From the NCBI GenBank assembly GCA_017798125.1, contig CP059070.1:1860001-1924000 (forward strand): a stretch of DNA of 64,000 nt. Direction: 5' to 3'. This DNA comes from Cryomorphaceae bacterium (GTDB taxonomy: Bacteria > Bacteroidota > Bacteroidia > Flavobacteriales > ECT2AJA-044). Under the pieces are notes generated by a model. It was not told the origin of the DNA. It made no database searches and worked only from the letters and a program-made list of their open reading frames with translations. Made by a program: the position numbers and the translations under genes. Positions 18,849 to 25,011 of this stretch are shown here, piece by piece. Position 1 is the first letter of the stretch; each line of letters opens with the position of its first letter.

Positions 18849-19268
18849 TTATAGAAAGGATTTGATCACGCCGGTCACGACGCCCCAAATGCGGAAATCC
18901 ATGTATTCATCGATTTCCAATGCGGTGAAGGCCTTGTTCTCGGGTTGAAGAACAACGCGGCCAGCATTTTTCAGCAAGCGCTTTACCGTGAAGTCTCCAT
19001 TCACTACAGCAAGTACGATGCGACCGTCTTCAGGAGCAAGTTTCTTGTCTACGACCAGCAGGTCACCGTCATCAATACCCGCGTCCACCATGCTTTGACC
19101 GTTCACGCGGACGCAAAAGCTATCTCGCGGATTGAGCACGAGCTCGCGATTCAGATCGATGGTTCGGTCTACCGTGCCCGTAACATAGGAAGGAGTTCCT
19201 GCCGACACGCTGTAGTCGAATAGGGGAAGGGATATGGTTGGCCCGTTATGTAGAGGAGTGATTTGCAT
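18849..19268 (-). CDS. umuD: UmuD-like self-cleaving SOS protein, no umuC nearby
   Basis: 139 residues from the ATG at 19268, or 140 from a GTG three bases upstream. S24/LexA-type protease: cleavage site Ala-Gly in SAGTPSY, catalytic Ser in GQSMVDAGI and Lys in FTVKRLL. Counted from the GTG these are A24-G25, S60 and K97, the same positions as in E. coli UmuD. No DNA-binding domain, so it is not LexA. UmuD normally pairs with the polymerase subunit UmuC, but the flanking genes on this strand are a small TPR-like membrane protein and the hydrolase-OsmC gene, so it is an orphan here. A TATCTTCG box at 19274-19281 lies five bases before the ATG. Confidence 0.85.
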   Translation of the reverse strand: MQITPLHNGPTISLPLFDYSVSAGTPSYVTGTVDRTIDLNRELVLNPRDSFCVRVNGQSMVDAGIDDGDLLVVDKKLAPEDGRIVLAVVNGDFTVKRLLKNAGRVVLQPENKAFTALEIDEYMDFRIWGVVTGVIKSFL

Positions 19269-19273
19269 CACCT

Positions 19274-19281
19274 CGAAGATA
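19274..19281 (-). promoter_or_regulatory. -7-like box five bases before the umuD ATG
   Basis: TATCTTCG on the minus strand, then AGGTG, then ATG at 19268. The AGGTG could also act as a weak ribosome binding site. No LexA-type palindrome was recognised. Confidence 0.45.
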
Positions 19282-19301
19282 CGGAAATCTAGCCAGTGCG
19301 A

Positions 19302-19817
19302 TTAAACGCGCTTCATCTGCTCTTTCATGAGCTTGATTTGCTCGTCGAGCAGACCGTGCTTGTCCAGTTTCTTCGCTTCGGTGATGAGGTTCTGAGCTTC
19401 GCGCTTACGGCGGCGACTCATCGCTGCTCCGGCCAAGGAAAGCTTGGCCATAGCTCGGTCGTGCGACATGCGCAAACCCGTGTTGAGGGCCTTCTTGAAG
19501 AACTTCTCCGCTTCAAAGACACCACCCTTTTGACTGGTGGTCAATCCGCGCATGAAGTAGTAGTATGCCTCTTGAGCGCGAATCAAGTGTTGAGGCTGCT
19601 TGATGCGATCCAAGTACTTTTCCGCTTTCTCTAAATCTCCTTTGCGGACAAACCAAAAGGCGATGAGTAGCATTTCGTGACGGAAAATCAACAGGACCAC
19701 CAATGCGGCCAAAAGGACCAAGAGGATTCCGTTTCCGATATTCCCTTCGATGAATTGGAAGACCGACCAGGCAAGCAAACCCGCAGTCAAGACGATCTTT
19801 ATGATTTTATTGAGCAT
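19302..19817 (-). CDS. Small membrane protein with a TPR-like helical tail
   Basis: 171 residues from the ATG at 19817; a longer reading to 19895 has no sensible N-terminus. Two hydrophobic segments at about 5-22 and 27-48, then a charged helical region (about 55-171) with TPR-like spacing: GDLEKAEKYLDRI, FEAEKFFKKALNTGL and EAQNLITEAKKLD. Probably an inner membrane protein with a cytoplasmic scaffold. No catalytic motif. It ends 33 bases upstream of umuD on the same strand and may share its context. Confidence 0.65.
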   Translation of the reverse strand: MLNKIIKIVLTAGLLAWSVFQFIEGNIGNGILLVLLAALVVLLIFRHEMLLIAFWFVRKGDLEKAEKYLDRIKQPQHLIRAQEAYYYFMRGLTTSQKGGVFEAEKFFKKALNTGLRMSHDRAMAKLSLAGAAMSRRRKREAQNLITEAKKLDKHGLLDEQIKLMKEQMKRV

Positions 19818-19908
19818 AGTTCCCTTCGTTAGCGAGCGGCAAAAATAAGGCTTCCCGTTGGAAATCGTCCCGTCGCCCCTTATTTTTAGGCTCAAACTCC
19901 TTTGCTGA

Positions 19909-21582
19909 ATGTCCTTAAAACAACTCTTTTCGGTTTTCCTCTTTTTCTGTGCCTACGGCACGATGGCCCAATCCCTCATCCAGGGCCGTCTCTTAGATGC
20001 CCAGGATGATTTTCCCATTCCTTACGCGGTTCTGCAGCGCAGCACCGATACACGTGCGGTGATGACTAATGCGGATGGCGCCTTCTCTTTAGAATTGGCA
20101 CCTGGGGAGCAATTGATCCTACGCCACATAGGATACAACCAAGAAACCTTCACGTTTGAGGGCGGAAGTGAATTCATTATTCGGGCTACGGCCAAAACCG
20201 AAGAGCTTCCCACCGTAGAACTCCAGGGAGAAAATGCAGCTTTAGATCTCTTCTGGGATATGGTAAAGATTGGTCGAAAACAGGCTACCGAGGCCCAAGG
20301 AATGAAGTCCTTTTATCGCTTGCTCACCAAGGAGGCTTCTGGAGAACCTTATGAGTATTTAGAGGCCTTTTATCAAACCGAAACCGGGGCTAATGGTATC
20401 GAAAGCATGGTTCCCAAAAGCGGACGCTTCGCCTTTGTCACCCGAGATGAGGACTTTTTCTCGGCCGACCTCAGCCGCTTGCTCCCGCAATTTCGCTTCT
20501 TCAGAACCTTCGGGGAAGTAGACAATCTGCCGGTATTCCCATCGGCGATGAACCGGAAGAAAATAGAGTCCACCTACAGTATAGAAGTTGAGCGATTGCT
20601 CTACAGCGCTGAGGGAACCACCGCCGAAATACACTTGATTTCCACAGACCCCAAGCACAAAGAGCATTACGTCTATTTCATCGATACCAAAACCAAGCTC
20701 CCGGTGCGTATTGAAATGCGGAAACACAAGTTGAACACACGGCCCTTCGAGGCTCTGGACGAGAACGATAAAGTAGGAGAGGTGCTCCTTACCAGTACGG
20801 TAGACTTTGGGCATGAAGACGGGAAGTTCTTTGTGGAGCAGTATCGATTGAACTTCGAGTACACCTACTTCAAATTGGGCTATGCTCCGCGGACCTTTTT
20901 GACAGACATGAGCTGGTTTGGTTATCGGAAGGGTCGATTCACCCTTCCGGTGTTGTACAGCCTAGCCGATTACCACACGGACTATCACTACTACGGTCGC
21001 TTACCCGATCTTCCGGAATTGTGGGAAGCCGATTATGCTGTACTGGCCACCTCCGAGCAGGAAAAGACTGTGGAATTGCTGAAAACGCTTGATACACGTG
21101 GAAATTTCTTTGGAGACAGCCTGAATCATAAAAAAACTTTTTGGCGAGATCGAGATCTCCCGATGGTTTGGAAGCGCATAGAAGACAAGAAGCCCGATCA
21201 AGACATTCGCTCTTTTAGCTACATCAATGAGCAGGCGAACCATCTTGTTTTTGACTTTTCGGTCAACTCGTTTTGTCAAGACGGTTCAGCGCAATGGTAT
21301 GTGGAGCCTGAATTCTTGGGTGAAGAGTCTTATTTCCGAGAAAATCGAACAGAAACAGCTCTTCGCTATGTGCAGTTGGCTTGGAAGATTACCATGCTGC
21401 GGGCCGATGAGTTTCAGCGGGACCTCAATGAAACCTCCAAGTGCTATTCAGACGACGAGCTTCGCCAACTGGTCGCCAATCGAGTAAACGCTCTGAATGA
21501 CGAGCTCTTTTCCCTATCCAGCCAAACGGCCGATGGAAAGTATGATGAGAAACTCGCAGAGTGGGAGTCCCGCTATGAATGA
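19909..21582 (+). CDS. Secreted/outer-membrane protein with a CarboxypepD-reg-like domain
   Basis: 557 residues with a signal peptide (about 1-21, TMAQ). Residues about 23-105 are a carboxypeptidase-regulatory-like beta domain (GRLLDAQDDFPIPYAVL, later LRHIGY) as found at the N-terminus of Bacteroidota outer membrane proteins. The remaining 450 residues are unrecognised, rich in aromatic and charged beta-like segments and ending in a helical region. There is no TonB plug or clear barrel signature. Function unknown. A perfect mini-hairpin copy overlaps the signal-peptide coding region (19949-19965). Confidence 0.7.
   Translation: MSLKQLFSVFLFFCAYGTMAQSLIQGRLLDAQDDFPIPYAVLQRSTDTRAVMTNADGAFSLELAPGEQLILRHIGYNQETFTFEGGSEFIIRATAKTEELPTVELQGENAALDLFWDMVKIGRKQATEAQGMKSFYRLLTKEASGEPYEYLEAFYQTETGANGIESMVPKSGRFAFVTRDEDFFSADLSRLLPQFRFFRTFGEVDNLPVFPSAMNRKKIESTYSIEVERLLYSAEGTTAEIHLISTDPKHKEHYVYFIDTKTKLPVRIEMRKHKLNTRPFEALDENDKVGEVLLTSTVDFGHEDGKFFVEQYRLNFEYTYFKLGYAPRTFLTDMSWFGYRKGRFTLPVLYSLADYHTDYHYYGRLPDLPELWEADYAVLATSEQEKTVELLKTLDTRGNFFGDSLNHKKTFWRDRDLPMVWKRIEDKKPDQDIRSFSYINEQANHLVFDFSVNSFCQDGSAQWYVEPEFLGEESYFRENRTETALRYVQLAWKITMLRADEFQRDLNETSKCYSDDELRQLVANRVNALNDELFSLSSQTADGKYDEKLAEWESRYE
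19949..19965 (+). repeat. Mini-hairpin copy (GTGCC stem, TAC loop, GATG)
   Basis: GTGCC-TAC-GGCAC-GATG. In the signal-peptide region of the CarboxypepD-reg protein gene. Confidence 0.75.
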
Positions 21583-21584
21583 GC

Positions 21585-21592
21585 TATATTTG
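21585..21592 (+). promoter_or_regulatory. Promoter -7 box of pepD
   Basis: TATATTTG, an exact match to TAnnTTTG, 23 bases before the pepD ATG, just past the stop of the preceding gene. Confidence 0.6.
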
Positions 21593-21615
21593 CCGTCCAA
21601 ATAAACTACTGCGCT

Positions 21616-23073
21616 ATGAGCCAAGATGTGCGTTCACTAGAACCTAAAGTACTCTGGAACTATTTTGAAGACCTCAATGCTGTACCTCGTCCTTCCAAGA
21701 AAGAAGAACGAGTCATTCAGTTTATGGTTGATTTTGGAAACTCTTTAGGCCTGGAAACCGTCACAGATGCTGTGGGTAACGTTCGCATCCGCAAAGGGGC
21801 AACCGAAGGCATGGAAGACCGCCAAATGGTCACGCTTCAGAGCCATTTGGATATGGTGCATCAAAAGAATGCCGCCACCGACTTTGATTTCGATACCGAA
21901 GGGATCCGGAGTTTCGTTGACGGCGATTGGGTCAAGGCAGAAGGAACTACACTTGGAGCGGACAATGGAATGGGGGTTGCGTCTATCATGACCCTACTTG
22001 CTTCAACAGATATTGCACATCCCGCTTTAGAAGCACTTTTTACCATTGACGAAGAAACGGGAATGACAGGTGCCAAAGGTTTGGAGCCTGGATTTTTAGA
22101 AGGCGATATTTTGCTCAACCTCGATACAGAGGATGATGATGAGTTGAGCATCGGCTGTGCCGGAGGAATCGATACCATTGTAGAAATGGACTACTCAGAA
22201 GAGGCATTGCCGGCCGGATCTTCAGGGGTTCGTATTGCTGTGAACGGTCTCAAAGGCGGTCACAGTGGTATGGACATTCACCTCGGACGTGGAAACGCCA
22301 ACAAAATTATGAACCGCTTGCTCTTCGAAACCCAAGAGCGCTTTGGACTGCGCATCTCCGAAGTAGACGGGGGAGGACTTCGCAATGCGATTCCTCGTGA
22401 AAGCTTTGCCAGCGTTGTGGTTTCTGATGTAGAGGGCTTTTTGCAACATGTAAAAGAGCTCGGCGAAACCATCAAAACTGAACTGCGATCTACAGAGCCG
22501 AATCTAGCCATTGAGGCTACTCGGGCCGACGTATCGGGCAAGGTGATGAGTACAGAAGCTCAAGATCAAATTCTCCGAGCATTGTACAGTATGGTGAATG
22601 GCGTTTACCGTATGAGTGCCGATATCCCAGACTTGGTAGAGACGAGTAGCAACTTGGCTCGAGTGATCATCAAAGAAGGCCACTTCAACATGCAAAGTCT
22701 TCAGCGCAGTTCTGTTGATACCGCAAAAGATGACATTGCCGCCAGCATTCGAGCTACCTTCCAGATGATTGGAGCCCAAGTGCGCCACGAAGGATCGTAT
22801 CCGGGATGGACACCTGATCCAGATTCGTCCATCTTGAACATTATGGGAGATCTATATCGTGAGCTAAATAACGAAGAGCCCAATATTTTGGCTTGCCACG
22901 CCGGTCTCGAGTGCGGATTATTAGGAACGCATTATCCCGAAATGGATATGATCAGCTTTGGTCCGAACATCCGAAATCCACACTCACCGGATGAAATGGT
23001 TCAAATCTCCTCGGTTCAGAAATACTGGAACTTTTTGCTCGAGACCCTTCAGCGCATTCCAGTAAAGGCGTGA
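21616..23073 (+). CDS. pepD: Aminoacyl-histidine dipeptidase (cytosolic PepD)
   Basis: 485 residues, the usual length of this M20 metallopeptidase, which cleaves Xaa-His and other dipeptides. Metal and catalytic motifs appear in order: SHLDMV, GADNGMGVA, IDEETGMTGA, LDTED and CHAGLECGLL. The lid/dimerisation domain spans about 210-390 (GHSGMDIHLGRGNA). No signal peptide, so cytoplasmic. The trmH GTG start overlaps the pepD stop by four bases (GTGA), so the two are translationally coupled. Confidence 0.94.
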   Translation: MSQDVRSLEPKVLWNYFEDLNAVPRPSKKEERVIQFMVDFGNSLGLETVTDAVGNVRIRKGATEGMEDRQMVTLQSHLDMVHQKNAATDFDFDTEGIRSFVDGDWVKAEGTTLGADNGMGVASIMTLLASTDIAHPALEALFTIDEETGMTGAKGLEPGFLEGDILLNLDTEDDDELSIGCAGGIDTIVEMDYSEEALPAGSSGVRIAVNGLKGGHSGMDIHLGRGNANKIMNRLLFETQERFGLRISEVDGGGLRNAIPRESFASVVVSDVEGFLQHVKELGETIKTELRSTEPNLAIEATRADVSGKVMSTEAQDQILRALYSMVNGVYRMSADIPDLVETSSNLARVIIKEGHFNMQSLQRSSVDTAKDDIAASIRATFQMIGAQVRHEGSYPGWTPDPDSSILNIMGDLYRELNNEEPNILACHAGLECGLLGTHYPEMDMISFGPNIRNPHSPDEMVQISSVQKYWNFLLETLQRIPVKA

Positions 23074-23771
23074 CGGGCTCGTACAGCGATCCGGCCTCGT
23101 TATCGCGTGATGAATTGCGCGAGCTCCTCTTATCGCTCGTCACGGAGCAACGGAGAGAGCGATTTGAGGAAGTCCTTCGCTGGCGTACGAGACATCTTAC
23201 CGTCGTAGTGGAAAATCTATACCAGCCACACAATGCCAGTGCGGTCATCAGGAGCTGTGATTGCTTCGGTATTCAAGACATCCATATCATCGAAAACGAG
23301 CATGTTTTTGACCCCTCCGAGAACATCTCCTTGGGTTCGCAAAAGTGGGTGACCCAGCGTCGACATAACCAGCTAGAGCACAATACAAAGGCGTGTATTC
23401 AAGCCCTGCGGGCCGATGGTTATCGCATCGTGGCCACCACTCCACACACCAACGATCAAGAACTGCATGAGCTCTCTTTGGACCAGCCTTTGGCTTTATT
23501 TTTCGGTTCGGAAAAGCCGGGGTTAACCGAGCACGTTCTTGAAGAAGCAGATGATTTTGTTCGAATCCCGATGTACGGCTTTACGGAGAGCTTTAATATC
23601 TCTGTATCGGCGGCTCTCACCTTGTACGACCTCACTACTCGGTTGCATCAGTCTGAGCTCAATTGGGCATTAACCGAGAACGAGAAAAACGAACTAAGAC
23701 TCGAGTGGGCCATGAAAAGTGCTCCGCGAGGAGCCGATATCCATGCTCGCTGGTTAGAAGGTCAGCGTTGA
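23070..23771 (+). CDS. trmH: SpoU-family tRNA (guanosine-2'-O-)-methyltransferase, TrmH-like
   Basis: 233 residues with a GTG start overlapping the pepD stop. Knotted SPOUT methyltransferase that would methylate the ribose of G18 in tRNA using SAM. Motif 1 ENLYQPHNASAVIRSCD, motif 2 FFGSEKPGL and motif 3 IPMYGFTESFNISVSAAL are all present, the last with the knot Asn. Length and the C-terminal charged extension suit TrmH. A mini-hairpin copy with a three-base loop lies at 23403-23418, encoding part of ALRADG. Confidence 0.9.
   Translation: MTGSYSDPASLSRDELRELLLSLVTEQRRERFEEVLRWRTRHLTVVVENLYQPHNASAVIRSCDCFGIQDIHIIENEHVFDPSENISLGSQKWVTQRRHNQLEHNTKACIQALRADGYRIVATTPHTNDQELHELSLDQPLALFFGSEKPGLTEHVLEEADDFVRIPMYGFTESFNISVSAALTLYDLTTRLHQSELNWALTENEKNELRLEWAMKSAPRGADIHARWLEGQR
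23403..23418 (+). repeat. Mini-hairpin, four-bp stem, CGATG
   Basis: GCCC-TGC-GGGC then CGATG. In trmH. Confidence 0.6.
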
Positions 23772-23778
23772 GTAGCTC

Positions 23779-23940
23779 TTAGTAGTAGAGTCTGCGCAAC
23801 TCCATTACCTCTTCTGGACTGTATCCATCTAGGATCATTGAACAATCAAAATCGTCCCAGGCATTCACCCAATCTGGGTGTACGCCCCAATGATGGGCTA
23901 GATGATCCAGGCGCTCTTCGGTGGGTTTGGGAAGAATCAT
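23779..23940 (-). CDS. 53-residue protein, paralogue A of a tandem pair
   Basis: Begins MILPKPTEE and ends LRRLYY. It aligns without gaps over all 53 residues with the next upstream gene on the same strand; shared positions include Trp28, Asp29, Phe31, Asp32, Asp38, Gly39, Tyr40, Glu43 and Glu44 (core W-D-x-F-D, then DGY-x-x-EE). Equal length, the same strand and a protein-level rather than DNA-level resemblance support real coding. I know no family for it. It might be a small cytoplasmic adaptor or toxin/antitoxin-sized protein; function unknown. It ends seven bases after the convergent trmH gene. Confidence 0.7.
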   Translation of the reverse strand: MILPKPTEERLDHLAHHWGVHPDWVNAWDDFDCSMILDGYSPEEVMELRRLYY

Positions 23941-24039
23941 TTGGGTCTAATTCTCAGGTGCTTTCACCTAACTGTACCCAAAAAATAAGAAAAAAGGAGA
24001 TTGCTTCGACGGTGTCGATTGGAAGAAGAGTAGGGATAC
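23941..24039. other. Spacer between the two 53-residue paralogue genes
   Basis: 99 bases without coding signal. It holds a small inverted repeat GGTGCTTTCACC (about 23958-23969) and an A-rich run, on the upstream side of paralogue A. No exact -7 box was recognised. Together with 24202-24333, which is AT-rich and holds no feature I can support, this is the remainder of the only stretch over 300 bases lacking a large gene. Confidence 0.5.
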
Positions 24040-24201
24040 TCAGTCTATATGTCGCTTCACGAACTCAAGTTCTTCAGCAGCATAGCCATCCATGAGCAGG
24101 GCCCAATCAAATAGATCCCAATTCCGAATTTGCTTTCGCTGAATTCCTCGTTTTTCGAGTTCGTTACCTGCGGCTTCCAATAGAGTGTCCGTGTTGTGCA
24201 T
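24040..24201 (-). CDS. 53-residue protein, paralogue B of a tandem pair
   Basis: Begins MHNTDTLLEAAG and ends FVKRHID. Gap-free match over 53 residues with the downstream gene 99 bases away, with the core N-W-D-L-F-D-W and MDGY-x-x-EE. The N-terminal half is helical and charged; the aromatic-acidic core follows. No signal peptide, cysteine pair or known motif. The divergent DUF4136 lipoprotein gene lies upstream. The pair fills most of the otherwise gene-free stretch 23772-24363. Confidence 0.7.
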   Translation of the reverse strand: MHNTDTLLEAAGNELEKRGIQRKQIRNWDLFDWALLMDGYAAEELEFVKRHID

Positions 24202-24333
24202 TCTGTTCTTTTAGTAATTAGTGCAAAGGTCGCTTTTCTACAACGACTTTTCTGTTAAGGTGTTGTTAACCAACACACAAAAGTACATAATTTATGCATG
24301 CATAGTAAATACGAAAAGGGCGCTCAAATTGTT

Positions 24334-24341
24334 TATTTTTG
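24334..24341 (+). promoter_or_regulatory. Promoter -7 box of the DUF4136-like lipoprotein gene
   Basis: TATTTTTG, exact TAnnTTTG, 22 bases before the ATG at 24364. It lies downstream of an alternative ATG at 24298 and so argues against that start. Confidence 0.55.
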
Positions 24342-24363: not shown

Positions 24364-25011
24364 ATGCGAGAAATGAATACCAACTTCCGCCTGCGCAAAT
24401 TCTTCTTTGTAGCAGTGTTGGCGGGGGCAATGGGATCCTTGCTTTCTAGCTGTTATCCAGAAGAGGTAAACAGCTATTCGGAGCTGGATCTGGTCTTTAC
24501 CAACTACGATGAAACATATGATTTCGGTAGTGTTATGACGTACCACTTACCCGATACCGTGATTCCTATTTTAGACGAAGACGATGATCCGGATGACGTG
24601 AACACAACAAACGATGCTTTCATCCTTCAAGAAATTCGCAAACAGCTCGGTGAGGCGGGATTGGTGTATGAAGCCGATACGTCTGCCGATTTCGACGTCG
24701 TTTTCATTGCGACGAAAATGAAGACGACGACCTTGGTGTACTGGTATGACTACTGGTACGGCTACTGGGGATGGTACCCAGGTTATTATCCAGGTTGGGG
24801 ATGGGGATATCCATCTGTTTCAAGTTACACCACTGGAACCCTTCACATCAGTATGTACGATCCGGACAACTTCGATGATGAATCTGAAATTGTCCCTGTG
24901 GAGTGGAATGGTTTCGCCAACGGTCTGCTTAATGTGACCGGAACGCAAACTACACGCAACCGAATCTCGATTGCTTTGGAAAAGATGTTCAACGAATTCC
25001 CAAATGAATAA
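24364..25011 (+). CDS. DUF4136-like lipoprotein with a Trp/Tyr/Gly-rich stretch
   Basis: About 215 residues from the ATG at 24364 (24373 is also possible). The signal peptide ends in LLSSC, a lipobox. The body resembles DUF4136 lipoproteins: YSELDLVFTNYDETYDFG near the start, then LREI-type helix with a C-terminal region NRISIALEKMF. An unusual central insert is almost entirely Trp, Tyr, Gly and Pro (about 24 residues around positions 140-165). Followed directly by an outer-membrane beta-barrel-like gene, so the two probably act together in the outer membrane. Confidence 0.75.
   Translation: MREMNTNFRLRKFFFVAVLAGAMGSLLSSCYPEEVNSYSELDLVFTNYDETYDFGSVMTYHLPDTVIPILDEDDDPDDVNTTNDAFILQEIRKQLGEAGLVYEADTSADFDVVFIATKMKTTTLVYWYDYWYGYWGWYPGYYPGWGWGYPSVSSYTTGTLHISMYDPDNFDDESEIVPVEWNGFANGLLNVTGTQTTRNRISIALEKMFNEFPNE

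Follow-up and report, generated by a model that had tools for sequence, protein, structure and literature searches.

Comparable small-protein families and helix-turn-helix domains

The GMSC global smORF catalogue holds 96.7 million small-protein families with at least three members, over half of which are genus-specific, and a conserved domain is assigned in only 6.1% of the families (PMC11364881). Narrow small-protein families without an explained function are common. The family described here is represented by two adjacent genes, named A and B, in the 64,000-nucleotide stretch of Cryomorphaceae bacterium contig CP059070.1 that was analysed (the window). Judged by its relatives, the bacterium belongs to the order Flavobacteriales. 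It resembles the uncharacterised GMSC families in consisting of short intergenic genes with a narrow taxonomic range and no domain assignment, and it may already be present in that catalogue without a name.

A GYS-x-E-E corner between two helices is presumably a feature of helix-turn-helix (HTH) domains, with region 4 of the ECF sigma factors as one instance, and was taken as a lead only. The A/B family is predicted to form a similar corner between two helices but has no significant Pfam or NCBIfam HTH match, is acidic, and terminates immediately behind the second of these helices. A weak match to HTH_72 (PF23739) was obtained with residues 15-28 of B (E 0.12), but at 12.8 bits it lies under the family cutoff of 27.0, the matched part misses the conserved core, and only one of the six family members matches at all. 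Searches of Pfam, NCBIfam, PADLOC and PHROGs (the last with A and B only) gave no match above cutoff or with E <=0.001, the best having an E value of 0.078. PDB sequences returned sub-threshold matches only, and no Rfam or tRNA match was found in the window. A and B fit no named family and constitute a new one, ordinary in kind.

Genes A and B

Genes A (23779..23940) and B (24040..24201) are both located on the minus strand, begin with ATG and have 53 codons (162 nt) apiece, as the preliminary description had reported. Gene A encodes an acidic A-type protein with a pI of 4.66 and the C-terminal end DDFDCSMILDGYSPEEVMELRRLYY; its paralogue B is also acidic (pI 4.97) and carries a basic cluster, KRGIQRKQIR, at residues 17-26. 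A SpoU/TrmH-type rRNA methylase gene (23070..23771, plus strand; PF00588, E 9.9e-34) is convergent with A, and a DUF4136 lipoprotein gene (24364..25011, plus strand; PF13590, E 8.4e-25) is divergent from B; neither belongs to the family. The start of the latter was set at the ATG at 24364 to fit a signal peptide and lipobox, the longest ORF call beginning at 24298. The pair was correctly said to occupy the only larger gap of the window, since 23772-24297 is the sole stretch of more than 200 nt between ORFs of at least 100 aa. It had also been placed below the usual annotation cutoff; common gene callers take genes of 90 nt and up, and a length of 162 nt is thus not automatically under it.

Comparison of A and B by BLASTP gave an ungapped alignment covering residues 19-50 of both proteins, in which 11 of 32 residues are identical and 21 of 32 positive (E 2e-8 for this single comparison). 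The Smith-Waterman score of 68 was reached by none of 20,000 shuffles, the shuffle maximum being 54. An ungapped alignment of all 53 residues had been claimed; this holds for residues 19-50, to which significant similarity is confined, whereas the first 18 residues show no significant similarity and the match there is partly a coincidence of equal length. The check for further copies that had been called for revealed no third copy in the organism's own genome (2.84 Mb, one contig), which holds A and B only.

Compared with pieces of 53 codons from long genes of the window, B lies at the 82nd percentile in codon use; of the non-coding frames free of stop codons, 0.2% score as high. The codon use of A is intermediate (28th percentile, with 9% of non-coding frames reaching its score), and its reality therefore rests on its homologues.

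Homologues and distribution

One other genome of the genus (G001) encodes an orthologue of B of equal length, with 91% protein and 76% DNA identity. The 31 base changes are distributed with 19 at third positions versus 8 and 4 at the other positions, and the Nei-Gojobori estimates are dN 0.085, dS 1.28 and dN/dS 0.066, far below the value near one that would have spoken against a functional gene. The basic cluster of B is kept in this congener. The congener's contig (C43; L053, position 12390) ends 133 bases past B, so that the place of A is unreadable there; no DNA match to the window sequence from 19250 to 24000, about 5 kb beside B, was obtained in G001.

Three homologues of A, 33-45% identical to it, were identified in another family of the order (here f8): L056 (CAMCXO010000022.1), L057 (JAFMBM010000013.1) and L058 (WGMI01000030.1). 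They are intact, similar in length to A and have their C-terminus at the matching place, with LDGYSxxExxxLRKL directly ahead of the stop; together with A they share DxF...LDGYSxxE...LRKL, and they keep D29, F31, D38, G39, Y40 and E44. Homologues with a conserved core, the absence of which had been named as grounds for dismissing the family, do thus exist. Their Smith-Waterman scores against A are 98, 89 and 78, in each case reached by none of 20,000 shuffles, and all are above the 68 obtained for A against B, which indicates either that B is a divergent copy or that the duplication predates the split. From these alignments A appears to be the copy of the more conserved type and B the divergent one; an origin of B within the genus and an earlier origin with loss elsewhere are both compatible with so few short sequences. 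Taken together, A and B are shown to be related, protein-coding genes, with B directly under purifying selection. The proposal of a small undescribed family with a tandem duplicate is borne out by the B orthologue of the congener, the three A-type homologues and the lack of family-library matches above cutoff.

A profile of the six sequences was searched against a sample of the order comprising 396 genomes from 108 genera, where matches above noise were confined to the own genus and the three f8 genomes; in a separate search of f8, three of 88 genomes carried the family. Scanning 84,980 genomes with one degenerate pattern, which members with an altered core would escape, confirmed the same three carriers. 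Among 395 sampled genomes of the phylum none beyond the own genome was found, apart from a weak match in two frames of 308-309 aa that was judged to be chance. Weak matches were rejected as chance in G391 (DGY core absent), G605 (frames of 309 aa and 308 aa) and G006 (long frames). Phage records and viral contigs contained no homologue. In a plasmid collection B had no match and A only two (E 0.5 and 0.7), both rejected as chance.

Within one f8 genus two genomes, G081 and G222, carry the small ORF and a third, G252, is without it. The latter has an "empty site" in which the fasciclin gene has a gene for a 171-residue protein as its immediate successor, about 150 nt away, versus about 310 nt in carriers. 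This clean absence indicates that the gene is dispensable and is gained or lost as a unit. The family is narrow and dispensable.

Conserved signature and predicted fold

The best-conserved signature, near the C-terminus, is DxF-x6-DGY-x3-E. All six members (A, B, the B orthologue of G001, L056, L057 and L058) have this core about 10 residues before the C-terminus in an ORF of less than about 70 codons, and all are acidic, with pI values of 4.09-4.97. Of the core W-D-x-F-D / DGY-x-x-EE that had been read from A and B, the DxF, DGY and E are conserved, while the W and the second D of WDxFD are not invariant.

AlphaFold2 models, built on an alignment of six sequences only (pTM 0.53-0.57), contain helices at residues 8-18, 22-26, 30-37 and 42-52 of A (pLDDT 80) and at 2-17, 22-26, 30-37 and 42-51 of B (pLDDT 83). 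The invariant D38-G39-Y40 and E44 fall in the turn that joins the last two predicted helices. Judging from the sequence and the predicted helix limits, the D-G pair would end one helix, the Tyr would pack into the core, and Ser/Ala41 together with Glu44 would cap the next helix. The DGY-xxx-E core is therefore, in these models, probably mainly a signature of the fold, forming a capped corner where two helices meet, and not an active site. Searches against solved structures yielded no significant match: the best Foldseek result with A was of the homeodomain type over 25-28 residues (E 1.7, not significant), and VIA-align gave a best Z of 3.0, with HTH entries at Z 2.1-2.2.

Candidate transcriptional signals at the locus

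Based on the -7 box consensus of Bacteroidota sigma-A promoters, TAnnTTTG (PMC6847099, PMC9723704), a candidate box for B, TACTTTTG, was identified on the minus strand at 24278..24285, 84 nt upstream of the gene; no exact box was found at the corresponding position in the congener. A match for the DUF4136 gene, TATTTTTG, is present on the plus strand at 24334..24341, assuming a start at the ATG at 24364. A perfect 12-bp palindrome, TATGCATGCATA, which is a candidate operator, lies between B and this divergent gene (24293..24304) and falls inside a run of 16 bases identical in the congener. It occurs as a single copy in each of the two congeneric genomes, both times at the B-DUF4136 intergenic site. 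One copy of a 12-base site per 2.8 Mb is unsurprising as a count; what is notable is that the sole copy lies at the corresponding place in both genomes. The 16-kb regions surrounding the outside homologues lack the palindrome.

An inverted repeat upstream of B (24225..24250, minus strand; AAGTCG...CGACCTT, in the congener AAAGTCG...CGACTTT) is a possible leader hairpin, the folding energy of which was no stronger than that of shuffled sequences (z -0.8 and -1.3). Located 3' of B is a TCGACAC-CGTCGA hairpin with a T-run (23990..24018, minus strand), a possible B/A terminator that is kept in the congener and was not called by a consensus terminator scan. The conserved hairpin and T-run suggest that B forms its own transcript. 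On these sequence features, B is likely to have its own promoter.

Neighbouring genes in family f8

The gene order in all three f8 carriers is fasciclin, small ORF, 171-residue protein (171-aa gene) and a further gene, which in L056 encodes an alpha/beta hydrolase. A strong hairpin and T-rich stretch is located 3' of the fasciclin gene in the carriers. In two of the three (L062, L063) a TAnnTTTG box (TACCTTTG) follows the small ORF and precedes the start of the 171-aa gene by 25-36 nt. Most loci that lack the small ORF have such a box too, and in all it precedes the 171-aa gene in 19 of the 28 f8 loci examined, versus about 0.03 expected per 70 nt. With a -7 box of its own, the 171-aa gene is probably a transcription unit separate from the small ORF; the latter most likely stands by itself, flanked by two other units, and does not head their operon.

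The 171-aa gene is present in 80 of the 88 f8 genomes, nearly all of them without the small ORF. The window contains a homologue (19302..19895, minus strand; 46-60% identity), 4 kb from A and B and on the same strand. A fixed neighbour gene had been proposed as a point to check, and none is shared by every member. An operon or fixed-neighbour link to the 171-aa gene, present beside the small ORF in three of three outside carriers, was considered and rejected: the gene carries a separate -7 box and in most genomes occurs without the small ORF.

Proposed function

A and B are tentatively regarded as previously unlisted, lineage-restricted, small soluble helical proteins that act by binding a partner protein, a reading to which we assign slightly less than an even chance. 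Each would fold as a short helix bundle, with the signature DxF...LDGYSxxE forming the corner between the last two helices, and would act in the cytoplasm by binding another protein, as a small adaptor, inhibitor or modulator. The net negative charge, the lack of an evident membrane or export signal, the lack of catalytic-looking residues and the helical fold lead us to infer a protein-binding role; the preference for a protein target over DNA, RNA or a small ligand is deduced from composition only. The function would be an accessory one, cleanly gained or lost by genomes. B, which is more divergent, has its own likely promoter and keeps its basic patch in the congener, probably took its own partner or role.

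The exact -7 boxes on both sides of the divergent layout, and a palindrome whose sole copy in each of the two congeneric genomes lies at this site, as expected for a dedicated operator, would fit B as a minimal local transcription regulator that binds the palindrome and controls the promoters of its own gene and of the DUF4136 lipoprotein/outer-membrane gene pair. The conserved basic cluster of B, a Foldseek result in which part of A weakly resembles homeodomain helices, and the sub-threshold matches that B gives with HTH_72 and with a family of phage repressors point the same way. This is nevertheless unlikely: none of the fold and family matches reaches significance (E 0.08 to 2 or worse), the protein as a whole is acidic, basic residues are scarce in A and L057, the palindrome is missing around the outside homologues, and an unrelated regulator could bind it. 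A narrower version, in which B alone would be dedicated to the once-per-genome palindrome through a very small helical DNA-binding fold unlike the listed HTH families, with A and the outside homologues using the fold otherwise, is quite improbable. If the palindrome is the target of B, the protein would be among the smallest dedicated regulators in Bacteroidota; otherwise the family joins the great number of narrow small-protein families that have no assigned function. In either case it is now defined by six sequences, a searchable signature and a clean present/absent comparison.

It is likewise unlikely that the family acts as a partner or regulator of the 171-residue membrane protein, with the window copies later separated from its gene. 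The constant order in the three outside carriers and the 4-kb distance on the same strand in the window agree with such a role, but most f8 genomes have the 171-aa gene alone and the intervening -7 box in two of three carriers makes separate transcription units probable. Many toxin-antitoxin, anti-sigma and anti-phage proteins are small, acidic, tandem and patchy in distribution, as A and B are. Membership in such a system is very unlikely, however, as no toxin, sigma factor or defence gene was recognised beside A and B, there is no PADLOC or phage match, viral contigs lack the family and plasmid matches have E values of at least 0.5. Chance ORFs or decayed remnants without a product would accord with the intermediate codon score of A and with the end of the congener's contig at its place, yet are hardly credible given the dN/dS of B and three intact outside homologues of A with similar length and matching end. 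Of these readings, the protein-binding one is the best supported.

Additional observations

L056, from genome G081, is titled Chryseobacterium gleum yet grouped in f8, and the title looks wrong; the other two f8 carriers are labelled Cryomorphaceae bacterium (L057 being labelled Cryomorphaceae) or just bacterium. The 171-residue membrane protein (window 19302-19895; L056:8138-8653) has repeat-like helices and no Pfam match above cutoff. Its gene often faces a gene for a SpoU/TrmH-like methylase.
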